Positions 12,983 to 40,929 of a DNA stretch of 43,404 nt are shown here, piece by piece. The stretch comes from Armatimonadota bacterium (GTDB lineage: Bacteria; Bacillota; Desulfotomaculia; Desulfotomaculales; Nap2-2B): assembly GCA_023511535.1 (NCBI GenBank), contig JAIMBK010000022.1:1-43404 (forward strand), read 5' to 3'. The notes below the pieces were generated by a model, which was not told where the DNA came from, did not search any database, and was given only the letters and a program-made list of their open reading frames with translations. Position 1 is the stretch's first letter; each line of letters begins with the position of its first letter. A program made the translations under genes and the position numbers.

Positions 12983-13071
<89 letters not shown>

Positions 13072-23545: not shown

Positions 23546-24079
23546 ATGGCTGAAGCAAAAGGTTTGGTGATGGTTTTTACCGGAAACGGAAAAGGGAAAA
23601 CGACCGCCGCCCTGGGGATGGGCATGCGCGCCTGGGGACAGGGGAAAAAGATCCTGGTGCTGCAGTTCATCAAGGGCCGGTGGCGCTACGGAGAATTAAA
23701 CGCGGCGGCCCGGCTGGGGGAGAATTTCGAAATCCGGCAGCTGGGGGAGGGTTTTACTTACCTCAACAATGAAGTAACTATGGCAGAACACCGCGCCGCC
23801 GCCCGCGCCGCCCTGGCGGCCGCCCTTAATGAGCTTGTCCGGGCGCAGGTGGACATGCTTATTTTGGACGAAATTTTATACGCCCTGAAATTGAAGCTGA
23901 TTACCCTGGAGGAGGTGCTGGGCCTGCTCGACCGCAAGCCGGCGCAAATGCACCTGGTTTTCACCGGGCGCAATGCCCCGCCGGAAATCATCGCGCGCGC
24001 GGACCTGGTCACGGAAATGAAAGAAATCAAACACCATTACGCCAGGGGGATCAAGGCGCAGAAGGGGGTGGAGTTTTGA
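23546..24079 (+). CDS. cobO: CobO/BtuR-type cob(I)alamin adenosyltransferase
   Basis: Transfers the adenosyl group of ATP to cob(I)yrinate diamide or cobalamin. The 177 residues show the P-loop GNGKGKTTAALG (13-24), the LVLQFIKG strand, LILDEI (Walker B), and the RNAPPEIIARADLVTEM region typical of this family. The C-terminal KGVEF is also characteristic. It has a GAGGAGG ribosome site. No other cobalamin biosynthesis gene adjoins it, but it stands next to corrinoid methyltransferase genes that need cobamides. Confidence 0.93.
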   Translation: MAEAKGLVMVFTGNGKGKTTAALGMGMRAWGQGKKILVLQFIKGRWRYGELNAAARLGENFEIRQLGEGFTYLNNEVTMAEHRAAARAALAAALNELVRAQVDMLILDEILYALKLKLITLEEVLGLLDRKPAQMHLVFTGRNAPPEIIARADLVTEMKEIKHHYARGIKAQKGVEF

Positions 24080-24097: not shown

Positions 24098-24889
24098 TTA
24101 ATGTTTCTGGTGGTTGCGGAAGTTCCTCTTTTCTTCTTGAAAAAAGGAGATAAAATTTAAAATAAATCGGAATTCCTGCCCGTTGCAATCACGCACTGCG
24201 CTAAGAAGAACCTGCACCTTGGGGTCGCAAATAGTTTCCATGCTATATTCATCGAAGTTTTGCAATGCCCTGGCAACGTCGTATTCTTCAGCAAAGAGAT
24301 TTACCAGGGTTACATTAAGGCAGCTTGCAATTTTTTCAAGAGTTTCCAATAAGGGAACAGACTGCCCACGCTCAATCTGGCTGATTAGACCCGGAGACAC
24401 ACCTACTCGTTCGGCCAGTTCTTTCACGCCCAGGCCCTGTTCGCGCCGGATTGTTCGAACCCGTTGCCCTAATTGGGCAAAAAAAGATGACTCCTCTACA
24501 TTTACGGGTTCCCCCAAAGGATGATTAAGTGCTTCGGAGAGTTTTTGCGCTTCCCGGGTAGTTGGAACAGCCTCTCCTTGTTCAATTTTTTTGATTACCT
24601 CTTCAGGGATATCGCTGATTTCCGCCAGTTCAGCAGTATTCAGGCCCCTTTCTTCTCTTAGCTCTCTGACCTGTCGTCCTTCCAGGATGTCTTCGCTGCA
24701 ACTTTTTAGATAAGTTGGAGAAATCTGCAGAACGGTGCTGGCTACCTGGACAAAAGAAGGCCCCGCCTTTTTTAATCCTCTTTCGATAGAGCTGATGTAT
24801 GAGGGGGAAAACCCGGTAAGCCGGGCAAATTCGATAAGGCTGATCTTTTGCTGCTTGCGCAGCTTCCTCAGGTGCCTTCCGAGAAGCAA
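24098..24889 (-). CDS. Regulator with three tandem XRE helix-turn-helix domains
   Basis: A protein of 263 residues made of three Cro/CI-type HTH domains at about 4-62, 70-126 and 139-198. The first and third have the cleanest recognition helices (SPSYISSIERG and SPGLISQIERG); the second is weaker. The C-terminal 65 residues carry a motif (DPKVQ, then VRD and ILNFI.FF) shared only with the paralogue at 25655. There is no cupin, peptidase or other known sensor domain. It is the last gene of an operon with a MtaA-like protein, its paralogue and a corrinoid protein, so it probably controls methyltransferase genes. The TTG start follows AAAGGGGG. Confidence 0.85.
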   Translation of the reverse strand: MLLGRHLRKLRKQQKISLIEFARLTGFSPSYISSIERGLKKAGPSFVQVASTVLQISPTYLKSCSEDILEGRQVRELREERGLNTAELAEISDIPEEVIKKIEQGEAVPTTREAQKLSEALNHPLGEPVNVEESSFFAQLGQRVRTIRREQGLGVKELAERVGVSPGLISQIERGQSVPLLETLEKIASCLNVTLVNLFAEEYDVARALQNFDEYSMETICDPKVQVLLSAVRDCNGQEFRFILNFISFFQEEKRNFRNHQKH

Positions 24890-24913
24890 AAAGAAGACCC
24901 CCTTTCGGGCAGA

Positions 24914-25603
24914 TCAACCGCTTAGAGCAGCTCTCAGCACCGGGTCATTTTTTATGGAAGCAAGAATATCGATTGCTACCTTTAACGCCTTCGTTGCATT
25001 GTTCGCGTATCCGCTGGCTCCCCAGCGAATAGCAATGTCTTCCGTAACGGGAGCCCCCCCGATCATGATCTTGACCTCCGGATTTGCCTGCTTAAGCTGG
25101 ACTATTACCCTCTTCATTTCCAGCATGGTTGTTGTCATCATTGTTGAAAGACAAACGATGTCGGGCCTTAATTGTTCGTATAAGTTCAGGAAACTCTCCA
25201 GGGAGACGTCCCGGCCAAGATCGTAAACTTCAAAGTTGGCGCTTTCAAACATCATTTTAACAATATTTTTGCCAATATCATGGATATCTCCTTCTACTAC
25301 TCCGATCAAAACCGTCCCTTTAATTCCTAAATCCTTTTTTTCTATCCGGTCTTTCAGCAATTCCAGACCTCGGTATAATACATCCGCACAGAGCAGCATT
25401 TCGGGAATAAAGTAAACTTCCTGCTCATATAAACGGCCTACTTCCTCAATGCCGGGAACAAGGCCGTCAAAAATTGCCCGTCCGGCACTGATTCCTTTTT
25501 CCAGGCAGGTTTTGATAATCTGCGTTACTTGTTCTTCGTCATAATTTATAACTGCATCCTTTAAACACATGAGTAATTCTTTTTCATCCTGGGGACATTG
25601 CAT
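24914..25603 (-). CDS. Corrinoid (B12-binding) methyltransferase protein
   Basis: A protein of 229 residues of the MtbC/MttC/MtaC type. The N-terminal helical cap (about 1-90) holds EVGRLYEQEVYFIPEMLLCAD; the Rossmann-like B12 domain has VVEGDIHDIGKN, whose H108 is the lower ligand of cobalt, then STMMTTTM and GGAPVT. It carries the methyl group between a substrate methyltransferase and an acceptor methyltransferase. It is closely similar to the corrinoid protein at 35928. It lies between two triple-HTH regulators and downstream of a MtaA-like gene. No activase is encoded in this operon. Confidence 0.93.
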   Translation of the reverse strand: MQCPQDEKELLMCLKDAVINYDEEQVTQIIKTCLEKGISAGRAIFDGLVPGIEEVGRLYEQEVYFIPEMLLCADVLYRGLELLKDRIEKKDLGIKGTVLIGVVEGDIHDIGKNIVKMMFESANFEVYDLGRDVSLESFLNLYEQLRPDIVCLSTMMTTTMLEMKRVIVQLKQANPEVKIMIGGAPVTEDIAIRWGASGYANNATKALKVAIDILASIKNDPVLRAALSG

Positions 25604-25654
25604 AGTTTCGACCCCCTTGGAGTTTACCCCTTGAGAATTGGCCGAAGAGAAGAT

Positions 25655-26422
25655 TTACAATAAATTGCGGTTTTGTTTAAAGAAATGGATAAAGTTGAGG
25701 ATGTATTTAAGCTCGCTGGAATCAAAATCCCGCACAGATCTTAAAATACTTTGCACCTTGGGATCGCCCAGGGTTTCCAAAACATCAGGGTTAAGGGTAG
25801 AAAGGAGGTCCTCTATATCATCCTGAGGCATCAAAAAATAAGTAACCGAAACATTTAAACTTTTAGCAATTTGCTCCAAGGTTTCTAAAAGGGGGGTTGT
25901 CTGACCGTTTTCGATTTGGCTGATCAGGCCCGGCGAAACTCCGCAGCGTTCAGCCAGAGCAGCAATAGTCAAACCCTGTTTAAGGCGCAACTTTTTGAGC
26001 CGGTAACCGAGGCTATTGATGCGGTTGGAGTGCTCAAGGAAGTACCGGAGAGTTACATTAAGGGCCTCAGATAGTTTTTTCAGGTCTTCCAGATCGGGGG
26101 TAGCCTGCCCCCTTTCAAATTTTTCCAAAGAACTGACCGGGAGCTCACTAATTTCTGCTAAATCTTCAATGCTCAAACCCCTGCTCTCGCGAAGAAAGCG
26201 TAATTTTTCCGCCGTCGCTTCGTCGTCTGCAGAACCGACCAGATAAGCAATTGATACATTTAGGGCCTCGCTGATCTTTCTCAGCATCGGAATCGATGGT
26301 TTACGGATACCCCTTTCGACCGCGCTGAGATAAGAAGGGGAAATGTTTAATTGTTCTGCCAGTTTGCTCAGGGTTACGCCCCGCTCTTTGCGAAAGTCAC
26401 GGATCTTTTGGCCCAGGCTCAT
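25655..26422 (-). CDS. Regulator with three tandem XRE helix-turn-helix domains (paralogue)
   Basis: A protein of 255 residues. HTH domains lie at about 3-63, 71-130 and 137-198; the recognition segments are SPSYLSAVERG, PVSSLEKFERG and SPGLISQIENG. The C-terminus (DPKVQSILRSVRDFDSSELKYILNFIHFF) matches the paralogue at 24098 and no domain I know. The ATG at 26422 overlaps the stop of the upstream MtaA-like gene by four bases and has AGGAG eight bases upstream. Three HTHs per chain suggest recognition of an extended or repeated operator. Confidence 0.87.
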   Translation of the reverse strand: MSLGQKIRDFRKERGVTLSKLAEQLNISPSYLSAVERGIRKPSIPMLRKISEALNVSIAYLVGSADDEATAEKLRFLRESRGLSIEDLAEISELPVSSLEKFERGQATPDLEDLKKLSEALNVTLRYFLEHSNRINSLGYRLKKLRLKQGLTIAALAERCGVSPGLISQIENGQTTPLLETLEQIAKSLNVSVTYFLMPQDDIEDLLSTLNPDVLETLGDPKVQSILRSVRDFDSSELKYILNFIHFFKQNRNLL

Positions 26423-27492
26423 CTTTTTGCTCCTTTTTTTTTCGTACAAAAGTTTTTCCGTAACCACAGCTTACCACCGTAATTTTTTGTTGCCTCGATC
26501 ATGGCGATCAGGTTATTCTCAGGAGCGGCAAGTGATATTTCGCAACTCGGCCAGATGCCATCCGAGCCCTCTTCCAGGCAACGGATTACTTCCGCCTGCA
26601 CCTCTTTCGGGGTGCCGTTAACCAACACCCCATATCCATCAAGGTTCCCGAAAATCAAGGGTTTTGAACCGGCGCGGCTCCTCGTTTGGGCCAGGCCATT
26701 TTTGTTTTCGACACTGATTGCGTTTGCCCCGCAATCCAACATTTCGTGGATAAGAGGAAGTGAACCGCCGCAGATATGTAAAATTTTTGGGATCCGGATA
26801 TTTTCAAATATGTTTTTTAAGTGGGGCTTGATCATTTTGGTGAAAATTTGGGGCGGCAAAATATCTGTTGTCGCTCCCATTTCTCGCACGGTAAGGTAAT
26901 CTGCACCGGCCTCGACATAACAAATACAGATTTTGATAATTAGCTCTGTAAGTCTGGAAAGTAAATCCATGACCTTGTCCGGTTTACGGATGGTGAACCG
27001 CAGCAACGAATTAAGATCCATGACCTGGCCGGCCAGGGTATAAGGGCCTAAAACATGGGAACCAACCGGAACTATCTGGCCAACCGTTTCTTTTAACCGT
27101 TGGATGGCCTCGGTAACTACGGGGATCCGGGCAAGACCGGCAACCTGTTCGGGAATTGACAAACATGATAAATCGTTTTCTGAATTAATAATCTGCCGGA
27201 CAATCTTGGGATAAATTGGCTGCTGTTGATGGGGATAAAAAGTAGCCTCGCACCCCAAAATTTCCGCTTCTGTGCATAAGTCAAACGGAACCACGGCACA
27301 TTCATATCCATATGCCTGGGCAGGAAACGCAGCCACCCTGGCTAATTTGTCGGCTGATTTATGAACTTCCGAAAAACTATAACCGTATTCTTGCAGGGCC
27401 TGGCCCCAAACGGTACCCATTCCACTAAAACACGCGACTCGATCAACAGACTTATCTGTCAACAACCCCAAAATACGCTCTCTAGAAAACAT
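26419..27492 (-). CDS. MtaA/CmuA-like (uroporphyrinogen decarboxylase fold) methyltransferase
   Basis: A protein of 357 residues of the UroD superfamily group that contains MtaA, MtbA and CmuA. The zinc motif of the methyltransferases is present as H239-x-C241 (HICGG) and C317 (WPSCE). It would move a methyl group to or from the corrinoid protein encoded in the same operon. It is more similar to the protein at 39877 than to MtaA at 34319 (shared GYECAVVPFDLC-type segment). Whether it acts on a substrate methyl group (MT1) or on a carrier (MT2) is not decided by sequence. A promoter lies at 27555-27583. Confidence 0.9.
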   Translation of the reverse strand: MFSRERILGLLTDKSVDRVACFSGMGTVWGQALQEYGYSFSEVHKSADKLARVAAFPAQAYGYECAVVPFDLCTEAEILGCEATFYPHQQQPIYPKIVRQIINSENDLSCLSIPEQVAGLARIPVVTEAIQRLKETVGQIVPVGSHVLGPYTLAGQVMDLNSLLRFTIRKPDKVMDLLSRLTELIIKICICYVEAGADYLTVREMGATTDILPPQIFTKMIKPHLKNIFENIRIPKILHICGGSLPLIHEMLDCGANAISVENKNGLAQTRSRAGSKPLIFGNLDGYGVLVNGTPKEVQAEVIRCLEEGSDGIWPSCEISLAAPENNLIAMIEATKNYGGKLWLRKNFCTKKKGAKR

Positions 27493-27554: not shown

Positions 27555-27583
27555 ATCTTAACACGCCCTCTTAAAAACGTCAA
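27555..27583 (-). promoter_or_regulatory. Promoter of the MtaA-like/regulator/corrinoid operon
   Basis: On the minus strand TTGACG (27578-27583) and TAAGAT (27555-27560) are separated by 17 bases. The leader to the ATG at 27492 is about 55 bases. Confidence 0.6.
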
Positions 27584-27728: not shown

Positions 27729-27814
27729 AATTTGAAGGAATAAAATTCCTCAGCTATAAGCGATAACTGAGGATGGATGAGGCTTTTATTCCGGGGAAAC
27801 GTTCCAACGTTTTT
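27729..27814 (+). ncRNA. Candidate structured small RNA
   Basis: An extended minus-10 promoter (TGCTATAAT, 27714-27722) faces into a 90-base stretch with no frame. The RNA would fold with an outer stem GGAATAAAA (27737-27745) with TTTTATTCC (27784-27792) and an inner stem TCCTCAG (27747-27753) with CTGAGGA (27767-27773). A short GGAA/TTCC hairpin and a T-run at 27810-27814 could end it. It lies between minus-strand genes and overlaps the end of the membrane-protein gene in antisense. No known riboswitch class is recognised; it could instead be only a terminator structure. Confidence 0.35.
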
Positions 27815-28646
27815 ATAAGAGGGCAACAAAAAAGCTCATTATTGCAATGGAGGTAGCCCAGGTGTCTATAAAAGTATCTCCATCGTTGATGAATAAATTA
27901 TGCAAAACCTCTTCAAGGAGAATGGTAATTGCTCCAAAAACAGCTGCTATATACAGGTTTTGAGTCGCCAGGGCGCTTGTTGCGGCGATTAAAGCCACGT
28001 TGTGGAGAATGGGGCAATCATCCGCTCCTGCCTGCAAAAAGATTAATGCTGCCAAAGCAATCCCAAAGCCTAACACTGCCTGACCCGTAAGCAAAGCTAC
28101 ATAGCCGTTGAGAAACCCAAAAACCAACCCTATGAGAATGTTCAAGGCAAGCGTTTGGGTACAAGGAAGCGTTTTTTTGGGCCCCTCGGGCTTGCCAAAA
28201 GGGCCGGTACGGCCAAAAATAAGCCGGGCCGCAATGCAGACGATAAATACAGTACACGCCAAAGAATTACCATGATTTCCTAATAATGTAGCCAGGCCTA
28301 AGTTAATAAAATAACCTGCCAGGCCAAATAGCCCTCCAATTGCTATTTGATCTATTCTCTTAAACTTGATCAGAGGGATAGTAATCTGTTGTCCGTGGAG
28401 GAAACCCCGGCGGCCGGCATAAGCCAGCGCCGCAAGCCCTGCGGCCCAGGAAATATGTGGGCCAAAAAAGGGACCCAGCCCAACGACATTAAGAAAGGTT
28501 GCGTCCCCTCCGGCCATTATGATAGCAGAGCCAATCACGATAAAAAATCCTGACATGATTAATGCCGGCAAGGGACCGATTAAGGCAGCAAAAGTCCCTC
28601 CCGCAAAAGAACTGATTGCTGAAGCAACAACCGGGAGCCCGCCCAT
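27813..28646 (-). CDS. Multi-pass membrane protein of unknown function
   Basis: A protein of 277 residues with about eight hydrophobic segments and Gly/Ala-rich loops, without a recognisable family motif. The loops include GRRGFLHGQQ and GADDCPILHN, and FINDGDTFIDTW lies near the C-terminus. The ATG at 28646 has AAGGTGGT upstream. It lies at the end of the methanol operon direction (after mtaB, mtaC, GTPase, activase, PPOX protein), 160 bases downstream of the last. A role in uptake of a methylated substrate is possible by position only; it is not a BCCT or MFS transporter. Confidence 0.8.
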   Translation of the reverse strand: MGGLPVVASAISSFAGGTFAALIGPLPALIMSGFFIVIGSAIIMAGGDATFLNVVGLGPFFGPHISWAAGLAALAYAGRRGFLHGQQITIPLIKFKRIDQIAIGGLFGLAGYFINLGLATLLGNHGNSLACTVFIVCIAARLIFGRTGPFGKPEGPKKTLPCTQTLALNILIGLVFGFLNGYVALLTGQAVLGFGIALAALIFLQAGADDCPILHNVALIAATSALATQNLYIAAVFGAITILLEEVLHNLFINDGDTFIDTWATSIAIMSFFVALL

Positions 28647-28806
28647 TTTAAACACCACCTTTTTGAATTACATTTTCAAACTATGATTCAAAACAATAAG
28701 TAATTTAATATTTTAAGTGATACCAGACAATCCTCTCCTGTTCGTTCCGGTAATTCCGGCTGCGGGCAAAAGTGGCATCCGTTTAGAAGATCGAGAGTTT
28801 TATGCG

Positions 28807-29227: not shown

Positions 29228-30847
29228 TTAAACCATAAATTTTTTAAGGGAAAAAACTTTTTCGGGGCAAACCCGTTCGCAACGCAAACAGGCAGTACCG
29301 TTGCACCGATCAGCCCTTAAACTAAACACGCTTTGATTTCCTTTGCTTTCTTTTAGTTCCAGGGCTTTTTCGGGACATTCGGAAATGCACAATCCGCAAT
29401 CCAGGCAGCCGGAAAAAGATGTATGGTAAATATTACCTACTTGCTCAATTACCTGCAGTCCGTGTGTCCCTATTACGTCTATATCCCGCGTTACGATCCT
29501 GTGAATATCGGGGCTTCCCTCGGGTAAAGGCAAATCTGGCAGTTTAAAGGTTCGTCCGAGCTTCCAGTATTGTTTCCAGGGCATCCCTTCTCCCCAGAAA
29601 GACAACTCTAATAAATAGGCATTGGCAAAATCTTTGGACATTCCGAACATACAATGCCGGGCTCTTAATTTGTTTGCCAGGTCTTGTAGTTCGCCCAATA
29701 ATTCAGGTTGCTTGATTAACCGGCGGGCCAAGGCCAAAGATGTATTGCCGATCTGGTAAATCTTTTGCACTGCCGGAGGAACCATGCCAATCCGGTAGGC
29801 CTTAAAGGCATCTACATAAGTTCCGGAAGCCCCCGCCATGTAAGCGCACTCGATTTCGGCAAGCGCGATTCCCGCTTCTTTAGCCAGCGTCAGGTACCCG
29901 GCCCGTAAAGCACCGATGGCTTTGCCCGCTTCTCCTAAATCTTGCTTGCTGAATCTAATTCCATTTGTTAAATGTAAGCCGCTGCTGATTTTGATTTCAG
30001 GCAAGCGAATGAGGTTGGCTTTCATTCCCTCGTAGATTACCGCGATTACCCCGGTGCCGGTAATTCCTGTCGCTTCCAAAGGACCCTTTTCCAGAACAGT
30101 TCCGCGGGCAAGATCGATCAAGTCACCTGCTTTGGCGATCAAATTTTGATCAAGAATAAACAGCCGGTGACCGGTCCCCTCGGCACGCAGATCGGCAATC
30201 GCTCCTGGTGCGGCCAGCATTCCATTGGTGATGTGTTGGCCTTCCAGGGCCGGCCCGGCGGCACAAGATCCGGTGTAAATTACCTCGCCAACTTTTAAGG
30301 CCATTTCAGCATTGGTTCCGTAATCGGTGACCAGGGCAGTTTCCGGTTTGTCCAGCAGACCTGATAAAATCATCATCGCGAGGGCGTCCGCGCCGATTTC
30401 GTGTCTGACCGCCGGAGGAATATATACCCGGGTCTGTGTCGGCAAGGCCAGGCCGCGAATTCTGTCCGCGGGTAGCATTTTACTGTCCCTGTTCGGTGGA
30501 ATCACGCCCAGCGCCTTTTTTTTGCGTTCGCCGGCATAAGCCAGGTCGCGAATTTCGATTTCTTCGAATATAGACAACTGAATGGGGTTTCCGCAAACCG
30601 CCAGTCTGGTTACTTTCTCCGGCGGAACCCCCAGATTGAAAATTATCTGATTAATGGCCGAGATAACCAGATCATGAGCGATATCAAGACCAAAATCAAC
30701 AGCAAAATTCAAGTGGTCCATTATGTTTGCCCCGGGCACAGGGTGGCGGGAAGTAATAACAGTGGCCAGCACTTCGCCGCTGGTCAATTCTATAGCTTGC
30801 CCCCGAAAACCGCTGGTCCCGAGGTCCAGAGCAATACCGTAACCCAC
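29228..30847 (-). CDS. RamA-like reductive activator of corrinoid proteins
   Basis: A protein of 539 residues. The N-terminal actin-like (ASKHA/DUF4445-type) part holds ALDLGTSGFR and later DYGTNAEMAL and GTGVIAVIY phosphate-binding motifs. The C-terminus carries two four-Cys clusters, CLDCGLCISECP and CNGTACLRCERVCP, as in methanogen RamA. It would reduce inactive cob(II)amide of the corrinoid protein to cob(I)amide using ATP. It differs from the activase at 36740, which has an N-terminal 2Fe-2S domain instead. It starts four bases after the GTPase gene (GTG start). Confidence 0.92.
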   Translation of the reverse strand: MGYGIALDLGTSGFRGQAIELTSGEVLATVITSRHPVPGANIMDHLNFAVDFGLDIAHDLVISAINQIIFNLGVPPEKVTRLAVCGNPIQLSIFEEIEIRDLAYAGERKKKALGVIPPNRDSKMLPADRIRGLALPTQTRVYIPPAVRHEIGADALAMMILSGLLDKPETALVTDYGTNAEMALKVGEVIYTGSCAAGPALEGQHITNGMLAAPGAIADLRAEGTGHRLFILDQNLIAKAGDLIDLARGTVLEKGPLEATGITGTGVIAVIYEGMKANLIRLPEIKISSGLHLTNGIRFSKQDLGEAGKAIGALRAGYLTLAKEAGIALAEIECAYMAGASGTYVDAFKAYRIGMVPPAVQKIYQIGNTSLALARRLIKQPELLGELQDLANKLRARHCMFGMSKDFANAYLLELSFWGEGMPWKQYWKLGRTFKLPDLPLPEGSPDIHRIVTRDIDVIGTHGLQVIEQVGNIYHTSFSGCLDCGLCISECPEKALELKESKGNQSVFSLRADRCNGTACLRCERVCPEKVFSLKKFMV

Positions 30848-30851
30848 TTTT

Positions 30852-31820
30852 TTATTCCCCCGTTTTTCCGGCAGAAGATAACAGGCATTTTTGTAAGTTC
30901 TCGGCCAAATTGGAATGAACCAGGTTCTGGCCGATAATCAAAACCCGGCTCTGATCGAAATTTTCCGCCAGCGGGGTGATGATGGTGCCGCTCGCCGGTA
31001 CGAAATCGATCCTTTGCCAGCCCTCCGGGCACCGGAAGATTCCCTTCGCGCGGACAACCTGACCTTGCGAAAGGCTGCCGAAACTATCAAAATATTTTTT
31101 TAGACGGTTTAAATCAAAGATCCCATGGTCTTTCCGTGTAAAGGTTTGATAGGTAGTAATTTTTTTCTCAAAATCGTCATGATGGTGATGGTGGCGGAGA
31201 CATCTGTCGCCGCCACCATCATTCAGATCGCCCGGAACAGGCGGGGTACCCATTTGCTCCAGAGCGACCTGTCCATACTTCGTATCCAGCACAATTGCCC
31301 GCTGGTTGATTTTTGAGATCGTTTTCCGGATTTCCCGGACAACGGCGGATGGAATCAAATCGCATTTGTTGATGATCACGACGTCCGCCAGGGAAATTTG
31401 AGATTCCATAAACGTCTGGTAGCCGGCATGGAAATCTGTAAATTCAACTCCGTCAATTAAAAGGATTACTTTTATTGCTTCCACATATTTTTCCAGGCGC
31501 AAACCGCCGACAACGGAGAGCAGTCCCTGGATTGTGGCGACACCTGTCGGCTCAATGATCACCCGGTCAGGCTTGATTTTGGTGGCAATCTTCAACAACT
31601 GCCTGCCTAAATCGGGAGCCAGGCTGCAGCAGATGCACCCGCTGGTCAACTCTACGACCTCTAAATCATCTTTTGCCAGCAGGGCTCCATCAATGCCTAT
31701 ATCGCCAAATTCGTTTACCAGGATGACAATCCGTTCCAGGGGAACGAGTTGTTTAACTAAATTTTGAATAAAAGTTGTTTTGCCGCTGCCCAGGAAACCG
31801 TTAACAATATCAACCAGCAA
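30852..31820 (-). CDS. G3E-family (CobW/COG0523) GTPase
   Basis: A protein of 322 residues. Walker A is GFLGSGKTT (8-16); the metal motif G-C-I-C-C is at 61-65; NKCD is the guanine specificity motif; and a His-rich loop RHHHHHDD lies near 209-216. The C-terminal CobW_C-like domain follows. Such proteins deliver metals, mostly zinc, to client enzymes, or assist cobalamin-dependent enzymes. Here it sits between mtaC and the activase, so zinc insertion into MtaB/MtaA or corrinoid handling are both plausible. It starts 11 bases after mtaC. Confidence 0.92.
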   Translation of the reverse strand: MLVDIVNGFLGSGKTTFIQNLVKQLVPLERIVILVNEFGDIGIDGALLAKDDLEVVELTSGCICCSLAPDLGRQLLKIATKIKPDRVIIEPTGVATIQGLLSVVGGLRLEKYVEAIKVILLIDGVEFTDFHAGYQTFMESQISLADVVIINKCDLIPSAVVREIRKTISKINQRAIVLDTKYGQVALEQMGTPPVPGDLNDGGGDRCLRHHHHHDDFEKKITTYQTFTRKDHGIFDLNRLKKYFDSFGSLSQGQVVRAKGIFRCPEGWQRIDFVPASGTIITPLAENFDQSRVLIIGQNLVHSNLAENLQKCLLSSAGKTGE

Positions 31821-31831
31821 CGTCGATCACC

Positions 31832-32575
31832 TTAACCGTTCCATTTTTCGCGCATTTGCCGCCAGTCCTTGCCGGAAACGGCATCCGCAGCCATTAACGG
31901 AGCCTGGGAGGCGTCCTTCCCCCAGATGCCTAAATCAAAGCTGGTGACGTATTCTTCTGAAACGGCCCCGCCGCCGCAGACAAAAGGCAGGCTTATTCCC
32001 TCCCGGACCAGACGTTTGGAAATCCGTTCAAAGGCGGTCATCGTGGTAGTCATTAAGGCGGTTCCGGTAACCATGGCCGGCTTATGTTGCTTTACAGCCG
32101 CTACAACATCGTCAACGGGTACGTCCTTGCCGAGGTCGATTACCTGATAGCCGTTGGCCCGGAGGAGGGCATTGGCGATTTTCTGGCCCAGATCGTGAAT
32201 GTCGCCTTCGGCTGTGTGCGTAATGACCACGCCTTTTTTCGCCAGCGCCTTGCCCATTTTTTCTTCGCAAATTTCGATCCCTTCGAGCATGGCGTCGGAA
32301 GAAAGGATGGTCTGGGGCAAATAATATACCCCTTCGTCCCAAAGCCGGCTGACCTCGTTCATGCCTTTGACCAGGGCATTGATGACATCCATGGGATCTT
32401 TGGTTTCTAACGCTTTCCTGACTACCGCGCCGATGTTATCCGTATCTCCTTCGACAACGCATTGAATAACGTTTTGCATAACTTCATCTTCTGCTGCAAC
32501 GGCCCTGGCTTCGCCCCGTTCGCGCTTTAAGTCGTAGCGGACAAAAATTCCAGAGTAATCATCGAGGAAGTACAT
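31832..32575 (-). CDS. mtaC: Methanol corrinoid protein MtaC
   Basis: A protein of 247 residues. The helical cap is followed by the B12-binding domain with AEGDIHDLGQK, whose H127 ligates cobalt, then GTALMTTTM and FVCGGGAVSEEY, which is the MtaC variant of this motif. It receives the methyl group from methanol bound by MtaB. The ATG has TAGGAGGG upstream. The gene follows mtaB by 38 bases. Confidence 0.93.
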   Translation of the reverse strand: MYFLDDYSGIFVRYDLKRERGEARAVAAEDEVMQNVIQCVVEGDTDNIGAVVRKALETKDPMDVINALVKGMNEVSRLWDEGVYYLPQTILSSDAMLEGIEICEEKMGKALAKKGVVITHTAEGDIHDLGQKIANALLRANGYQVIDLGKDVPVDDVVAAVKQHKPAMVTGTALMTTTMTAFERISKRLVREGISLPFVCGGGAVSEEYVTSFDLGIWGKDASQAPLMAADAVSGKDWRQMREKWNG

Positions 32576-32613: not shown

Positions 32614-33987
32614 TTAAAGGCCATAATTGGCGGGTTTGAAGCCACGCACGTGCTTTTGATAGATCGGGATGCATTCGGCAATAAAATCATCTTCTTTGTC
32701 AGGTAGGGACAAAAGCGTTTTGTAAGTAGATTCAAGAACTTCTTTTTCGAAATCCGACAGAAGCAACCTGGCATCTCCCCGCATCAATTCGGCCGCCTTG
32801 ATTGCCGCCGCCCGGGCGCGGCTGTAGTAAGATTCGGCGTTGCTGACAATTGCTTTCCCGATTTCGTAGGCGTTGTCCGGCGAAAGGATGAATCCGTGCG
32901 TATCCCGGTACTTGTCCGAATTGATCATCATATCCCTTAAATCTTTGGCCTTCCCCATCTTGATCGCCGTATTCATCAGGGCAACGTCGTATCCTAAGAT
33001 TTCTGTAAATACCGCTGCGGTAGTTCCGCCGAACATATCGTGATATTCCACAGCCTCGTTGCTCCAGAGGTCACAAACCGCAGCCACCAGGTTGCCCAAT
33101 AAGTCGGAGTGGGCACAGGCGCAGGTTTTGCCTTCCATGGAAATCGGGATGCCGGCAATCGCCTTAATAATTGTATCTTCATAGCCACAGTCTTTAGTTG
33201 GTCCCTTTGCACCCTGTTCGTAAGCTACAAGCGTCCGGGGCGCGGCGATTGCTCGACAAATTGCGGCAAAAGTATGCGGGACGGATTTGTCGAGGAATCC
33301 GCCGGCCATAAACATGGCAACGTTGGCCTGGGCGCAGTCGGTTTCGCCGCCGGGAGTCGCCCCGTATTTGTTGGCAATTTCGACGATTTTCTTCCATAAA
33401 AATTCAACGTCACGACTGCCCAGAACGCCAATGCCGAAGAGAACGCCCCGAATATCCTGACGGACGATTGCGTAATCAGTGATTTCTTTACCTCCCATGG
33501 ACTCGATCGAGAGGTTGTCCGCTCCGGCGGCGGCACTTGCTTCGAATGTAGCCAGGATATTTTTCAGGGCATCGCCGTCCCGGATATTTTCTTCGTCAGG
33601 CTTGCGGTAATCGGCAGGGGTAGCTCTAATAGCACTTTTTAAACCATATTTCTGGTAATAATCATCCATTATGCGCTTTGTTGCGGCAGCGATTTCCCCG
33701 CCCCAATCCGGATGCCTGGTCATCTGATAAACGTGTTCCAGTTCGATCTGCAAACCCGGGAGACCTATTTGTACGCAGCGCTCTAAAGCATCGTTCACCA
33801 TTTTTTCGTACTCCCGAACCAGGCTCTTTTTCGATTCTTCGGAACCCGGACGGGGGTGGGGCACCAGCTCCGGATAAACGAAACCGCCTCCCGCTACAAA
33901 ATCGCGCCCGTATTTTACCGGGTACTTGGCCGTTCCGAAGACCATTTCGTCAGCACTCTTGTAAGCCATTGAAGTGTACTTCGCCAT
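32614..33987 (-). CDS. mtaB: Methanol:corrinoid methyltransferase MtaB
   Basis: A protein of 457 residues that matches MtaB over its whole length. The zinc ligands known from Methanosarcina (Glu164, Cys220, Cys269) correspond exactly, with an offset of two, to E162 (SIESMGG), C218 (ETDCAQAN) and C267 (KDCGYED). It activates methanol and methylates Co(I) of MtaC. The ribosome site AAAAGGAGG is strong. It is the first gene of the operon mtaB-mtaC-GTPase-activase-PPOX. Confidence 0.96.
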   Translation of the reverse strand: MAKYTSMAYKSADEMVFGTAKYPVKYGRDFVAGGGFVYPELVPHPRPGSEESKKSLVREYEKMVNDALERCVQIGLPGLQIELEHVYQMTRHPDWGGEIAAATKRIMDDYYQKYGLKSAIRATPADYRKPDEENIRDGDALKNILATFEASAAAGADNLSIESMGGKEITDYAIVRQDIRGVLFGIGVLGSRDVEFLWKKIVEIANKYGATPGGETDCAQANVAMFMAGGFLDKSVPHTFAAICRAIAAPRTLVAYEQGAKGPTKDCGYEDTIIKAIAGIPISMEGKTCACAHSDLLGNLVAAVCDLWSNEAVEYHDMFGGTTAAVFTEILGYDVALMNTAIKMGKAKDLRDMMINSDKYRDTHGFILSPDNAYEIGKAIVSNAESYYSRARAAAIKAAELMRGDARLLLSDFEKEVLESTYKTLLSLPDKEDDFIAECIPIYQKHVRGFKPANYGL

Positions 33988-34318: not shown

Positions 34319-35353
34319 TTACTTCATAAAACCCTCTTCGACCTGCTCTACCATTGCCCTTAAGCTGGCGATTGAAGTTGCGGGAGGAATGGAACACCCC
34401 GGGGCAATCATGTGATATCCATCTTCAATAGCTTTCTTTACTTCTGATTTAACTTTTTCTACATTGCCGGAAAATAATGTGTGGGCAGCATCAACTCCGC
34501 CAAGAAGCGGGATGTGGCGGTCAAATTTTTTTAACTTTTCGATTGCCTTCGGAGCGTCAACTTTTGTTTCCACGCTTATCGCCGTTACCCCCAGACCGGC
34601 AATATCTTCGATTACATCATCCAACTTACCGCAAATATGAATAATTGTGGGGATATCCTGGAGTTCGGCGAGCAGTTTCTTTTGCCAGGGCAGGACAATC
34701 TCACGGTAGATTTTGGGGCTAATCATATCCAGGGAAGCCATCATATCTTCGATGCAAATAGCATCAGCACCGGCCTTAATTAGTTCCCGGGCCAGGAGGC
34801 GTCCGGCGACCTCACCTATTTCCATAAATGGTTCTACCAGGTGGGGTTTTCGAAAACTGTTCCGCAGTAGATCAGTAACGCCGATCAGACTTCCCGCAAT
34901 GCTGTACGGCCCAATGATTCCGCCAATGACCAGGACCTCATCACCAACCATTTCTTTTAATAACTTTAAAGCCTGGATTAATTCCGGTATCCTTCCTCTT
35001 TGCAGGTAATCTTCCGGCATGACGGGACGCTCGTCCGGCTTATATGGATAGGCGGCAGGGCTCGGTACATTTTTGCTGCCCCCGTCCTTAATTGGGCAAC
35101 CCAGGGCTTCTGCTTCTATTGTCTGGCAAAAAGGAACACGCACCGCGTCGAAACCCAGTATGGAGTAGGCTCCCGAAGCCAGCCTGGCCATCTCCTCGGC
35201 CCGAAAATTGGCTTCTGGCCAATATGCCCCTAATTGTTCCATTTGTTCGTAAGTGGCTGTCTGGTTAACGCAGAGAACCGGCAGACGATCTGTTTTTTCG
35301 CCTTTTAAAGCTTTGAACATTCTTTCGCGGCCGCTGAGTTTTACTTTATCCAT
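34319..35353 (-). CDS. mtaA: Methylcobamide methyltransferase MtaA
   Basis: A protein of 344 residues of the MtaA/MtbA branch of the UroD superfamily, with the zinc ligands H239-x-C241 (HICGK) and C320 (APGCS). In methanogens the acceptor is coenzyme M; in acetogens and sulfate reducers using this system it is thought to be tetrahydrofolate. It differs clearly from the two other MtaA-like proteins in this window. It lies upstream of mtaB with about 330 bases between, so it may be transcribed separately or attenuated. The ATG has GTAGGAGG upstream. Confidence 0.92.
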   Translation of the reverse strand: MDKVKLSGRERMFKALKGEKTDRLPVLCVNQTATYEQMEQLGAYWPEANFRAEEMARLASGAYSILGFDAVRVPFCQTIEAEALGCPIKDGGSKNVPSPAAYPYKPDERPVMPEDYLQRGRIPELIQALKLLKEMVGDEVLVIGGIIGPYSIAGSLIGVTDLLRNSFRKPHLVEPFMEIGEVAGRLLARELIKAGADAICIEDMMASLDMISPKIYREIVLPWQKKLLAELQDIPTIIHICGKLDDVIEDIAGLGVTAISVETKVDAPKAIEKLKKFDRHIPLLGGVDAAHTLFSGNVEKVKSEVKKAIEDGYHMIAPGCSIPPATSIASLRAMVEQVEEGFMK

Positions 35354-35927
35354 CCCTTGAACCTCCTACTTTTTTGCATTCCGGTGACTTTTTCATTGGT
35401 TTAGCAAGTACAACACATATACACTATAACTAAACATCTAGTAAAAACTTCAAGAAATCGTTACAGTGATTTTATTAAAGATATCCATCCGATGTAAATC
35501 TTTTTTCCTTGAATGGTAAAATGTGAACACCTAAATGCTGATTTTCGCCCCTTAATGGTTTCCCCGGAGATTTTGCCAGGCGGTTCGGGCAAGTAACTAA
35601 AAACTACCGCCAAGACCTTTTGCCCGCAAATATTACCCAACAACCTTTCAACCATTACCTGGTAATACCATTCGGGTTTTGAAAGCTACCACTTACAGGC
35701 AAAAAATTACCTTTCGAGGCGGATAGATTGTTTTTTAGAAATTTACGTTGTTAAATTAAGGGGGGAGGAGGTGCAAAAAAATTTAATAGCAGAGCAAGAT
35801 AACGATACATATTGAACTTAATTATTGAAATTTGGAGTGGAGGTGGATCTGTTTCGGGCGATTGAAATTTGGAGGACGACACCATTATTGCCGGAAAAAC
35901 ACGTTTAAGTGAAAGGAGAAAGTAATT
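35354..35927. other. Divergent intergenic region with a direct repeat
   Basis: It holds the promoters of mtaA (minus) and the corrinoid operon (plus). AT-rich hexamers such as TATAGT at about 35423 on the minus strand are candidates. ATTGAAATTTGGAG occurs exactly twice, at 35824-35837 and 35861-35874, just before the plus-strand operon. Two ribosome-site-like purine runs near 35760 and 35835 precede no good frame. A 64-codon minus frame at 35461-35655 has no support. Confidence 0.4.
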
Positions 35928-36596
35928 ATGACGCCGGAACGGGAAAATGAATTGTTGGAAAAGTTGGCTCAGGCAGTGGTCAACTTTGACGAGGAGGGTG
36001 TAAAGGTTATTGCGCAAGAAGCCCTGGCTGAAGGTTTGGACCCCAATAAGGCTGTGTTTGAAGGTCTGGTTAAAGGAATGCAAGAGGTTGGCCGCCTTTA
36101 CGAGGAGCAGGAATATTTTGTCCCTGAGTTGCTGATGTGTGCCGATGCGTTATATGCCGGACTGGATATATTTAAACCATTAATGAAAGCCGACCGGACG
36201 AGTGTGCGCGGACAGGTAGTGATGGGGGTGGTGCAGGGGGACGTGCACGACATCGGCAAGAATCTGGTTAAGGTCATGTTTGAAGCGGCTGGCTTTCAGG
36301 TTTATGACCTGGGCAGGGACGTCCCTTTAGAGAAATTTGTTGAGGAACAGTTGCGTACTGACTCTGAGATAGTAGCTTTGTCAGCGATGATGACCACTAC
36401 CATGGTGGGAATGAAAGATGTAATTAAAGCCATCAAAGAGAAAAATCCGAGAGCAAAAATCATGATCGGCGGTGCTCCCGTGACCGAAGATATTGCTGCC
36501 AAGTTTGGAGCTGACGGGTATGCCAAGGACGCCAGCAATGCCCTCAAGGATGCCATCAACATGATCAGCTCACTGCGGGATTTACAGAAAGATTAA
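35928..36596 (+). CDS. Corrinoid (B12-binding) methyltransferase protein
   Basis: A protein of 222 residues, closely similar to that at 24914. The helical cap has EVGRLYEEQEYFVPELLMCAD; the B12 domain has VVQGDVHDIGKN with cobalt ligand H107, SAMMTTTM and GGAPVTEDIA. It belongs to the MtbC/MttC-like group rather than MtaC. It is the first gene of an operon with a RACE activase, a MtrH-like methyltransferase and a MtaA-like protein, so it should carry methyl groups between the last two. AAAGGAG ribosome site, ATG start. Confidence 0.93.
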   Translation: MTPERENELLEKLAQAVVNFDEEGVKVIAQEALAEGLDPNKAVFEGLVKGMQEVGRLYEEQEYFVPELLMCADALYAGLDIFKPLMKADRTSVRGQVVMGVVQGDVHDIGKNLVKVMFEAAGFQVYDLGRDVPLEKFVEEQLRTDSEIVALSAMMTTTMVGMKDVIKAIKEKNPRAKIMIGGAPVTEDIAAKFGADGYAKDASNALKDAINMISSLRDLQKD

Positions 36597-36739
36597 AGAA
36601 ACAAAAGGGTTAGCCGGGTAATCAATTAAAATAGGGAGTGTTGTCGTTAAAGTTTAGTAGCAGAACACAACTGATGATCGGATAAACTAATTGGTTGAGA
36701 AATGACTTTTGTCGACAAGGTTTTTGAGGAGGTTTGTTA

Positions 36740-38758
36740 ATGGCGGCACAGGTAATCTTTCAGCCATCCGGGCGGCGGGGCCGGGTGGAAGAGGGGATTT
36801 CTCTCCTGGAAGCGGCCCGCCAGCTGGGCGTGGACATCGAAAGCGTTTGCGGCGGCGCCCGGGTTTGCGGGAAATGCAAAGTAAAAATTGAAGAGGGCTT
36901 TTTTGAAAAGTTCGGCATTGATTCGCGAATAAGCCACCTGTCCCCCCTCCTGGAAGAAGAACAAGATTTCCTGGAGGAAAAGGAACTTGCCGACAATTAC
37001 CGGCTGGCCTGCTGCGCCGAGGTGCACGGGGACGTGCTGGTTTTTGTGCCGGAGGAGAGTCGCGGGGCCAAACAGGTGGTTCTGGAGCACGGCAAAGAAC
37101 GCGTTTATAAACTTAACCCGGCGGTGCGCAAGTATTTCCTGCAGGTGGAAAAGGCCACCCTGGAGGATCACCGGGGGGATTTCGAGCGGATCCGGGATGC
37201 CCTGGCGGCGAAATACGGCCTTCCCCGCGATTTAACCATCGATTACCTGGTTTTGCGTGAGCTCCCTTTTATCCTGCGGAACCAGAGCGGGTTTACCCGG
37301 CGCACCCTGGGCGGCAAATTTTTTGCGGGCCTGCCGCTGGTCACCGGGGAGGGTACCTGGGACGTAACCGTCACCGTCTGGAACAACCAGGAAATTATTC
37401 TGGTGGAGCCCGGCCTGGCGGAGACCTGCGTGGGACTGGCGATCGACGTGGGCACCACCACCGTGGCGGCCTACCTGTGCGATTTGCGCAGCGGGCAGGT
37501 GCTGGCCGTCGATTCGATGATGAATCCCCAGGTTCGCTACGGCGAAGACGTCCTCTCCCGGATCACCTACGCCATGATGAACGAGGACGGCCTGCAGCGC
37601 ATGCACGAAGCAATTATCGAAGGAATCAACACGCTGGCCCGGCGGATGACCGAAAAGGCGGGGCTGGTGCCGGAAGACATCCTGGAGGTCACGCTGGTTT
37701 TCAATACCGCCATGCAGCACATCGCCCTGGGCATCGAGCCCAGTTTCCTCGGCCGCTCGCCCTTCACCGCCGGGGTGAAAAGCTCCCTGGACATTAAAGC
37801 GCGGGACCTGGGCATCAAGGTCTGCCCGACGGCCAACGTGCATACCCTGCCCGTGGAAGCCGGCTTTGTGGGCCCGGACAACGTGGGCGTGCTGATTGCC
37901 GAGGAGCCTTACAAGGAGCAGGAAAAGATCCGGATGTGCATTGACATCGGCACCAACGGGGAAATCGACATCGGCAACGCGCATAAGATGATGTGCACTT
38001 CCTGCGCCACGGGGCCGGCCCTGGAGGGGGCGCAGATCAAATTCGGGATGCGGGCCGCGCCTGGTGCCATTGAAAAAGTGAAGATCGATCCCGAGACCCT
38101 CGAAATTTCGTACAAAGTCATCGGCCAGGAATTGTGGTACCCGGAGATCAAGAAGACCGAGGCAAAAGGCATTTGCGGCTCGGGCATCATCGACATCGTC
38201 GCCGAACTTTTCAAGACCGGGATCATTGACAAAAACGGGCGCTTCAACCTGAAGCTCAATTCCCCCCGGGTGAGAAGGGGGGAGGACAACAAGCCGGAGT
38301 ACGTGCTGGCCTGGGCGGAAGAAACGTCCATCGGCAAGGACATCACCTTCACTCAGGGGGACGTGCGGGCCGTCCAGCTGGCGAAGGCCGCCCTGTACGT
38401 CGGCGCGCGCTACCTGATGGAGAAGCTGGGGGTCGACCGCGTGGACAGCATCACCCTGGCCGGCGCTTTCGGCAATTACATCAACAAGGAGAGCGCCATG
38501 GTCATCGGTATGATTCCCGACTGCGACCTGGCGAACGTGGTGGCCGTGGGCAACGCTGCCGGCGACGGAGCCAAGCTGGCCCTGTTAGACGTGGATAAAC
38601 GGGCGGAGGCGGCCTGGATTGCCCGGGAAATCGAATTTGTGGAAACGGCCATCGAACCCGATTTCCAGGAGCGTTTTGCCGCGGCCATGGCTTTCCCGCA
38701 CGCGAAGGAAAAATTTCCGCACATCCAGCACATCCTGGACAGGATCCCTAAACGTTGA
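36740..38758 (+). CDS. RACE-type corrinoid activation protein with N-terminal 2Fe-2S domain
   Basis: A protein of 672 residues. The N-terminal ferredoxin domain has C37-x5-C43-x2-C46 and a later Cys at 91 or 92, as in acetogen activases. A middle domain (about 130-220) precedes the actin-like DUF4445 part, with AIDVGTTTVAAY, MCIDIGTNGEI, ATGPALEGA and CGSGIIDIVAELF. It uses ATP to reduce the corrinoid protein to Co(I). The ATG at 36740 has GAGGAGG seven bases upstream. It is a different class from the RamA-like activase at 29228, so the two modules carry separate activases. Confidence 0.94.
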   Translation: MAAQVIFQPSGRRGRVEEGISLLEAARQLGVDIESVCGGARVCGKCKVKIEEGFFEKFGIDSRISHLSPLLEEEQDFLEEKELADNYRLACCAEVHGDVLVFVPEESRGAKQVVLEHGKERVYKLNPAVRKYFLQVEKATLEDHRGDFERIRDALAAKYGLPRDLTIDYLVLRELPFILRNQSGFTRRTLGGKFFAGLPLVTGEGTWDVTVTVWNNQEIILVEPGLAETCVGLAIDVGTTTVAAYLCDLRSGQVLAVDSMMNPQVRYGEDVLSRITYAMMNEDGLQRMHEAIIEGINTLARRMTEKAGLVPEDILEVTLVFNTAMQHIALGIEPSFLGRSPFTAGVKSSLDIKARDLGIKVCPTANVHTLPVEAGFVGPDNVGVLIAEEPYKEQEKIRMCIDIGTNGEIDIGNAHKMMCTSCATGPALEGAQIKFGMRAAPGAIEKVKIDPETLEISYKVIGQELWYPEIKKTEAKGICGSGIIDIVAELFKTGIIDKNGRFNLKLNSPRVRRGEDNKPEYVLAWAEETSIGKDITFTQGDVRAVQLAKAALYVGARYLMEKLGVDRVDSITLAGAFGNYINKESAMVIGMIPDCDLANVVAVGNAAGDGAKLALLDVDKRAEAAWIAREIEFVETAIEPDFQERFAAAMAFPHAKEKFPHIQHILDRIPKR

Positions 38759-38815
38759 CCGGCGGCAACCCGGCAGGCCGGAGAATCTAAAAATGAATCG
38801 AGGAGGGGAAAAGAA

Positions 38816-39754
38816 ATGTTTAAGCTCAATCGCCCCCAAAAGGTGTGCCGGATCGGCAACTGGAAGGTAGGGGGACAGCCCGGCGAAAATCCGCCGCTTC
38901 TGATCTCGTCCATGTTTCACAACGGCGACCGGATTTTGGAAAGCCGCAAAGAACGCAAGTTTGACCGGAATAAGGCGCGGGACTACGTCCTGCGCCAGGA
39001 AGAGCTTTCCGCCCAGACGGGGATTCCGGCCCTGGTGGCGATGGTGGCCAACTCCCTGGACGAAATGAAGACTTACATCGAATTTTTCTTGGGCATCAGT
39101 GAACAGCCTTTTGGAATTGATATCTGGGTGGAGAAAACCCGGCTGGAGGTGGCCGCCTACATTGCCGAACTGGGGATTCAGGACCGGGTTTTGTACAACA
39201 GCATTACCCCCTGGGATAAGGACATCGCCGGGCAGGCTGCACATTTAAGGGAACTGGGCATCAAGCACGTGGTGGTGCAGGCCTTTAACCAGGAAGACCA
39301 GACGCCCCGCGGCCGGGTGACCGGCTTAAAGAAAATGCTGGAGGCAATCAAGGAAGACGGCTTTGCCGCCATTCTGGTGGATACCGCCGTGATGAACCTG
39401 CCCTCGACAGCCTTCTCCTGCCTCGCCAGCCGGCTGGTGAAGGAGGAATTCGGCTGGCCCGCCGGCGTGGCTTCTTCCAACGGCACGTACATGTGGAAGG
39501 AGGCCCGGGAAATGTGGGGTTCCGAGGGCTTTTCCGCCATGAACGCGGCCGGCCAGGCCATCGCCGCTTTCCTGTGGACGGATCTCTTGTTCAGCGGACC
39601 CATCGTGAACATTCCCAAGATCATCCCTGCCGTGGCCACCGCGGCGATGATGCTGGCCACCCTGGTTTACGACGAGACGAAAACTTTGCCGGCCAACGAA
39701 AACCATCCGCTGTATAAGTTTTTTGGCGATTTTGTGAAACAACTGCAGCAATAA
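38816..39754 (+). CDS. MtrH-like methyltetrahydrofolate methyltransferase
   Basis: A protein of 312 residues of the MtrH/MtvA family (TIM-barrel pterin-binding type). Characteristic parts are the N-terminal GNWKVGGQPGENPPLLISSMFH, the FGIDIWVEKTRLEVAAYI strand, and the C-terminal NIPKIIPAVATAA. It would transfer the methyl group from the corrinoid protein to tetrahydrofolate (or the reverse). GAGGAGGGG ribosome site, ATG start. A fragment of a second copy survives at 42211. Confidence 0.92.
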   Translation: MFKLNRPQKVCRIGNWKVGGQPGENPPLLISSMFHNGDRILESRKERKFDRNKARDYVLRQEELSAQTGIPALVAMVANSLDEMKTYIEFFLGISEQPFGIDIWVEKTRLEVAAYIAELGIQDRVLYNSITPWDKDIAGQAAHLRELGIKHVVVQAFNQEDQTPRGRVTGLKKMLEAIKEDGFAAILVDTAVMNLPSTAFSCLASRLVKEEFGWPAGVASSNGTYMWKEAREMWGSEGFSAMNAAGQAIAAFLWTDLLFSGPIVNIPKIIPAVATAAMMLATLVYDETKTLPANENHPLYKFFGDFVKQLQQ

Positions 39755-39876
39755 AGGGATCAACATTACAGTTTGCCGGGACGATGTTTCAGCCGGCCTG
39801 AACTCACGGCGGCAAACGCGCGCCAGGTAAAAAAGTCACTTTCGGAAGAAAAGAAAACCGGAAAGGGGTTTTAGCG

Positions 39877-40929
39877 ATGACGATGACTTCCCGCGAACGG
39901 GTACTGGGTCTTTTCGAGGGAAAAGAAGTGGACCGGATGACCTGCTATAGCGGCATGGGGAACGTGACCACCGCCGCCCTGGAGGAACTCGGCTACCGGT
40001 TTCCCGAAATCCACGGCGACGCCCAAAAAATGGCCGCCGCCGGGGCCAGTTCGTACCGTTTGTTCGGCTACGAATGCGCCGTCATTCCGTGGGACATGTG
40101 CGTGGAGGCGGAGGCCCTGGGCTGCGTGATGAACGTCTACGAGGACGTAGCCCACCTGCTCTATCCGACGATCAAAGAAAAAATTATCCACTCTCCGGAA
40201 GAAATGAACAAGGTGGAAATTCCGCCCGACTACCCCGAACGGGGGCGCTTTCCGGTGGTGAGGGAGGCGCTTGGGATCATTAAGAAGGAAATCGGCAACG
40301 AAGTGGCCGTCGGCACCTGGCTTTTAGGGCCCTTTACGCTGGCCGGGCAGATTATGGACTTAAACGACCTGTTCAAGCTTGTTTTTAAAAAGCCGGCCGA
40401 GGTCAACGCCCTTCTGGACACCCTGGCCGAAGGACTGATCATGGTGGCCAAGAAATACCGGGAGGCGGGCGCCGACTACATTACCATCCGGGAAATGGGC
40501 GCGCCCACCGACGTTTTGAGTCCGCGCAGTTTTAAACAGGTGATCAAGCCCCACCTGGAAAAAATCTTCAGCCGGATCGATTCTCCAAAAATCCTGCATA
40601 TCTGTGGCGACACCAACCTGATTATCGGCCTGATGAACGAGTGCGGCGCCGACGCCATCAGCGTGGAAACCAAGAACGACCTGGTTAAGAGCAGGGAAGT
40701 GATTGGTCGTGAGCCGCTTCTTTTCGGGAAGGTGGACGGCTACAACGTGCTGGCCAACGGCACGCCCGAGGATGTGGAGAAGGCGGTGCTGGAAAGCATT
40801 GAGGGCGGCGTAGATGCCGTCTGGCCGGCCTGTGACATCTGGCCCACGGCGCCGCTTGCCAATCTGCGCGCCATGGTGGAGACGGTGAAGAAGTACGGGG
40901 CGGAGAAGTGGGCGCGAAAAAAGCGGTAA
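39877..40929 (+). CDS. MtaA/CmuA-like (uroporphyrinogen decarboxylase fold) methyltransferase
   Basis: A protein of 350 residues, paralogue of the one at 26419. Zinc ligands are H241-x-C243 (HICGD) and C319 (WPACD). In an operon with a corrinoid protein, RACE and MtrH, a MT1 is expected, and this is the only candidate. It may therefore accept methyl groups from an unidentified donor, such as a methoxylated compound. The alternative is a second acceptor transferase. AAAGGGG precedes the ATG. A diverged fragment of a second copy lies at 42250. Confidence 0.9.
   Translation: MTMTSRERVLGLFEGKEVDRMTCYSGMGNVTTAALEELGYRFPEIHGDAQKMAAAGASSYRLFGYECAVIPWDMCVEAEALGCVMNVYEDVAHLLYPTIKEKIIHSPEEMNKVEIPPDYPERGRFPVVREALGIIKKEIGNEVAVGTWLLGPFTLAGQIMDLNDLFKLVFKKPAEVNALLDTLAEGLIMVAKKYREAGADYITIREMGAPTDVLSPRSFKQVIKPHLEKIFSRIDSPKILHICGDTNLIIGLMNECGADAISVETKNDLVKSREVIGREPLLFGKVDGYNVLANGTPEDVEKAVLESIEGGVDAVWPACDIWPTAPLANLRAMVETVKKYGAEKWARKKR

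Follow-up and report, generated by a model that had tools for sequence, protein, structure and literature searches.

Three-XRE-domain proteins as candidate local regulators of corrinoid methyltransferase operons in Bacillota

Regulator genes and methyl operons at the locus

The stretch of DNA analysed here (the window; 43,404 nucleotides), from a sulfate-reducing bacterium, encodes two proteins with three helix-turn-helix (HTH) domains each, and the corrinoid protein gene reported between them in the initial annotation is present (24914-25603). All three genes are on the minus strand. Regulator 1 (25655-26422, 255 aa) is a three-XRE transcription factor whose ATG at 26422 overlaps by 4 bases the stop of the upstream gene for a UroD/MtaA-family methyltransferase (mtaA2, 26419-27492, minus strand), and the corrinoid gene lies directly 3' of it. 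Regulator 2 (24098-24889, 263 aa) is a divergent paralogue with a TTG start preceded by a AAAGGGGGTC ribosome site. Both frames are intact. A corrinoid adenosyltransferase gene (BtuR/CobO, 23546-24079, plus strand) converges on regulator 2; BtuR/CobO genes also occur near the regulator in loci L123 and L156.

These genes end a long minus-strand series for methanol use, in the order mtaA (34319-35353), mtaB (32614-33987), mtaC (31832-32575), a CobW-type GTPase (30852-31820), a RamA-type corrinoid activase (29228-30847), a PNPOx-type protein, a 281-residue protein, the UroD gene and the regulator-corrinoid-regulator set. The 281-residue protein (27813-28658) is membrane-like and has no Pfam or NCBIfam match. 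An O-demethylase-like operon (35928-40929, plus strand) diverges from mtaA and encodes a corrinoid protein, a RACo activase, an MtrH-like protein and a UroD methyltransferase. The promoter proposed near 27555 is matched by TTGACG-17-TAAGAT at 27583-27555 (minus strand), which would serve mtaA2-regulator-corrinoid-regulator as one unit, and a similar promoter is present in L007; however, promoter matches in the region are no more numerous than in shuffled sequence. A terminator-like hairpin (27747-27773, minus strand) lies upstream of this unit. The relatives that bear names are records of Desulfovirgula, Desulfofundulus and Desulfotomaculum copahuensis.

Each chain has three stretches that match Pfam HTH_3 (E = 8e-54 and 180 bits for regulator 1, E = 1.5e-38 and 131 bits for regulator 2, against a curated cut-off of 23). 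The two proteins are 42% identical over the entire chain and have in common the C-terminal motif DPKVQ...VRD...ILNFI.FF (DPKVQSILRSVRDFDSSELKYILNFIHFFKQ in regulator 1, DPKVQVLLSAVRDCNGQEFRFILNFISFFQE in regulator 2). The description of three HTHs per chain with a common C-terminal motif is thus confirmed by the HTH_3 matches and the alignment. Neither protein has a listed B12 domain in Pfam, where a MerR match falls below the cut-off. In the AlphaFold models each regulator has three XRE folds of five helices and a C-terminal helical part; the packing of the domains is unreliable (pLDDT 74 and 69, pTM 0.35 and 0.34 for regulators 1 and 2), and the C-terminal part of regulator 2 is mostly below pLDDT 60.

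In regulator 1, XRE domain 1 (26234-26416) has the canonical recognition helix SPSYLSAVERG and domain 3 (25829-26014) the canonical SPGLISQIENG, followed by the C-terminal helical part (25658-25828) with the family-wide motif DPxVQ...VRD...ILNFI.FF. Domain 2 (26033-26218) is degenerate throughout the corrinoid-linked clade described below, with LAEISeLP...LEKFExG in place of LAxxAGISxSYLSEIERG, whereas domains 1 and 3 of the clade keep the usual recognition-helix signature. By sequence, two of the three HTH domains thus look canonical.

A corrinoid-linked clade within a widespread family

Three tandem HTHs had been taken as an unusual design, which is not borne out because the family is common. 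At a family-profile threshold of E <= 1e-30 it is present in 65 of 113 genomes of the class and in 108 of 399 sampled genomes of the same phylum, mostly as full-length matches. Regulators 1 and 2 match at full length with E = 9.4e-115 and 1.9e-97, both being themselves rows of the model. Most genomes of the window's order have one copy, about 42% identical to regulator 1, in a housekeeping context flanked by AlaS/RuvX/VanW/MltG/U32/PBP genes and FmdB/thioredoxin genes (neighbour names are our reading of the cluster sequences). The C-terminal segment is common to all subgroups of the family, and we rejected it as a methyl-specific mark.

Stretches around approximately 150 copies were collected, their neighbours were labelled using the methyl proteins of the window, and a tree was built from 147 distinct proteins. 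Copies with a corrinoid gene no more than three genes away were counted as corrinoid-adjacent. There are 29 of these, from 14 family codes, and one clade of 40 proteins (SH-aLRT 99) includes them all; none of the 107 proteins outside it has a corrinoid neighbour. This clade contains both regulators of the window. In a tree rooted on other family members and the housekeeping group, from which regulator 2 was excluded, a single origin of the corrinoid-linked copies is recovered (support 90/83; 84% of bootstraps), and their nearest relatives are copies that precede a gene for an FAD-linked oxidase. For most clade members the next gene on the 3' side encodes a corrinoid protein, also at loci whose catalytic operon includes one; orthologues of regulator 1 that are 62-84% identical to it lie directly upstream of corrinoid genes. 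Within the class, a clade member occurs in 6 of 8 genomes with mtaB versus 9 of 105 without it (Fisher 4.8e-5, the genomes being related); the two mtaB genomes that lack one are G076 and G022.

The evidence supports a subfamily whose linkage to corrinoid methyltransferase genes is specific and extends over many families of Bacillota. The idea in the initial annotation of a regulator family for methyl-compound use is supported for this clade but not for the family as a whole, which is broader. Likewise, the motif is widespread in unrelated contexts when the whole family is considered, but not when only the clade of these proteins is. Since one lineage has kept the corrinoid pairing across so many families, its members probably switch genes for the use of methyl compounds. 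The regulators could instead be general cell-state regulators of the SinR type, placed beside corrinoid genes only by operon shuffling; the PBP/MltG/FmdB context of the housekeeping copies and best PDB matches to SinR and similar single domains are compatible with this. We regard it as very improbable given a clade-specific linkage that recurs in 14 families and has no instance among the 107 other proteins.

Ten of the 11 remaining clade members group together, and most precede a gene for an FAD-linked oxidase/CCG protein of about 900 residues. The three-XRE gene is directly upstream of it in L154, L189, L201, L197, L158, L194 and L132, in what looks like a further local pairing of regulator and enzyme; the Pfam check covered L154. 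Because the clade also includes these copies, sensing of corrinoids cannot be general to it.

Regulator 2 has the longest end branch of the 147-protein tree (1.78) and no counterpart in the other genomes of the class (113 searched). The duplicated pair presented in the initial annotation as part of the design is therefore not conserved, regulator 2 being found only in the genome of the window. It is probably an additional copy that is diverging rapidly in this lineage. That it is non-functional, a duplicate in decay, or a protein that acts on regulator 1 in a dominant-negative way is a real though less favoured prospect that would be compatible with any reading of regulator 1: the long branch, the missing counterparts and the low-confidence C-terminal model fit such a reading, but the frame of 263 codons is intact, the ribosome site is good, domain 3 is canonical and the C-terminal motif is conserved, all of which speaks for a working protein.

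A candidate sensor and a candidate operator

The corrinoid protein next to regulator 1 is of the two-domain, B12-binding type, and its DIHDIG motif is intact. All regulator-adjacent corrinoid proteins keep DxHxxG, and thus look catalytically competent. Only in L156, L157 and L161 is the adjacent protein of the catalytic type; at the other loci it belongs to neither the MtaC nor the OdmA-type clade. The adjacent proteins form one clade in a quick tree (support 96) but not in a careful rooted tree. At the f29 loci, the regulator and its corrinoid gene form a unit divergent from a methyl operon in which a separate corrinoid gene is already present. Desulfofundulus-type loci have the order regulator, corrinoid, corrinoid, then about 300 bp with a promoter, then the mta operon. 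A small DUF6951-like protein recurs beside the regulator-linked corrinoid genes of L151, L200, L212 and L147 (with a Pfam match in L151).

The position of these proteins outside the MtaC and OdmA-type clades, together with the separate corrinoid gene in the methyl operon, suggests that the adjacent protein is a dedicated partner of the regulator. Tentatively, this would be a non-catalytic protein that acts in trans as the cobamide or methyl-cobamide sensor of the three-XRE regulator. An alternative of similarly limited probability is that the regulator controls local methyl operons while the adjacent protein is another methyl carrier, serving a UroD-type methyltransferase; the signal would then be the methyl substrate, another small molecule or the regulator's own level. 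The retention of DxHxxG in every case, the presence of more than one UroD methyltransferase in the window and in Desulfofundulus-type loci, and the catalytic-type proteins of L156, L157 and L161 are expected of a carrier. The divergent f29 pair beside an operon that already has a corrinoid gene, and the f9 unit set about 300 bp from mtaA with a promoter in between, are less so.

We aligned the stretch that follows the regulator unit in eight relatives with the mtaA leader of the window. This revealed a conserved promoter, TTTACA-17/18-TAAAAT, with an element of about 28 bp on its 3' side, GTTTAGYnnnAGAGCAwnTnnnTTnAAC. In the window the promoter is TTTACA-18-TAAAAT (35469-35498, minus strand) in the region between the divergent operons, aligned with the Desulfofundulus-type loci. 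The element was found again before OdmA-type corrinoid genes, and in all it precedes methyl operons of three kinds. A search of the 113 class genomes with up to two mismatches found it at the locus in seven f9 genomes, as one or two sites in each, along with three scattered matches (one in G058, plus G094 and G104); the reversed control pattern gave two. Within the seven f9 genomes a single match, with two mismatches, lies away from the locus. In Desulfofundulus-type genomes the element is thus nearly confined to the linked methyl operons; four of the second sites lie outside the sequence used to derive it, the element being otherwise derived from the loci that it marks. It is seen only in f9 and, more weakly, in the window, G001 and D. 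copahuensis (L011).

Both candidate operators of the window are in the region between mtaA and the odmA-like gene. The mta-type site (35408-35435, minus strand) faces mtaA with three mismatches to GTTTAGYNNNAGAGCAWNTNNNTTNAAC, and the odm-type site (35782-35808, plus strand) faces the odmA-like gene with two mismatches to TTTARTNNNAGAGCAANNNNNNTMAAC; each is the sole match to its pattern in the window, where 0.01 and 0.05 are expected. In L064 the element is located about 27 bases 3' of the -10, which is a repressor-type position, and it is absent from the promoter region of the regulator itself. Some leaders repeat TKAAC half-sites at about 10 bp, a spacing suggestive of use by a protein with several HTHs.

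Other features were noted in these regions. The sequence TTTAGTAGCAGAACA (36653-36668, plus strand), between the odmA-like and RACo genes, is close to the odm-type element and may be a third site; the loose pattern behind it gives about as many matches by chance. In L064 (12534-12600) and its relatives a conserved block 5' of the -35 contains the near-palindromes ATTAATTGCAATTAAT and TGCCTGGCA, which cannot be made out clearly in the window. In L008, L009, L062, L127 and L011, relatives in which no mta genes follow, the conserved promoter stretch stands before another operon; the first gene of this operon is of the UroD family (URO-D in L009), with an aquaporin gene further on. The palindrome TGCCNGGCA, found upstream of the mtaA promoter in some Desulfofundulus-type loci, was rejected, as it is absent from the mtaA region of the window. 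We also rejected an RNA leader or riboswitch: no structure around the element is conserved, and Rfam gave no cobalamin match, only a tRNA (12986-13071) reaching the gathering score.

On balance, regulator 1 is best read as a local regulator, and probably a repressor, that acts on corrinoid methyltransferase operons, and the corrinoid protein encoded beside it is the candidate sensor. In the window, regulator 1 would act on the mta operon and on the odm-like operon that diverges from it. We propose that regulator 1 dimerizes via its C-terminal part, and that HTH1 and HTH3 of the dimer probably bind the element in the mtaA/odmA intergenic region, with HTH2 as a spacer or dimer contact. Transcription would be blocked until a signal arrives, most likely by way of the adjacent corrinoid protein, which might for example report that cobamide is present or methylated. 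Of this reading, the architecture, the phylogeny, the gene linkage and the element itself are shown, whereas dimerization, binding to the element, repression and the sensing of corrinoids are inferred.

How corrinoid methyltransferase systems for methanol and methoxylated aromatics are switched on in anaerobic bacteria is poorly known. If the sensor reading is true, many families of Bacillota would share a B12-controlled switch for anaerobic methylotrophy that is made of two separate proteins.

Comparison with known regulators and methyl systems

The closest structural likeness is to single-domain XRE regulators (SinR, ClgR, ImmR and DdrO; Pfam HTH_3, PF01381), in family and in the fold of each domain; no PDB entry matches the whole chain at E <= 0.001. 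Unlike these, the regulators described here have three domains in one chain and a conserved C-terminal helical part, and domain 2 is degenerate in the corrinoid-linked clade. The housekeeping three-XRE protein (core copies L041-L060 and L068) has the same length, architecture and C-terminal motif and is about 38-44% identical, but it belongs to another clade, lies in another gene context and has canonical recognition helices in all three domains. CarH-type B12-dependent repressors combine the sensor and a MerR-type HTH in one chain. The logic of B12-controlled DNA binding would be common to both if the corrinoid-sensor reading is right, whereas here the corrinoid protein is separate and the HTHs are XRE domains, with no B12 domain in the HTH chain.

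The methanol operon of Desulfofundulus kuznetsovii 17T (Desku_0050-60) has the same gene set and order as in G058/L064, and the gene order suggests the same species. Its induction needs methanol and cobalt or B12 (PMC5770442), and the induced operon starts at mtaA (PMC5770442, PMC10907483), so that by gene order the regulator unit lies outside it. The proteome of strain TPOSR includes two cobalamin-binding proteins encoded upstream of the operon insert; both are low and do not respond to cobalt (PMC10907483), and they would be the regulator-linked ones. The parts of both papers that we consulted do not discuss a regulator of Desku_0050-60 and name none, and the three-XRE protein is a specific candidate, with a candidate site and sensor.

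In open-access full text we came across no three-XRE protein described as regulating methyltransferase operons, and within this scope the methyl-linked subfamily appears undescribed, as the initial annotation had proposed. Local control of corrinoid methyltransferase genes has been proposed for the MecA/MecD two-component system (PMC9768040), and a GAF/PAS-sigma54 activator in L131 is likewise a proposed local regulator of a methyl operon; both resemble the three-XRE regulators in this role and belong to unrelated protein families.
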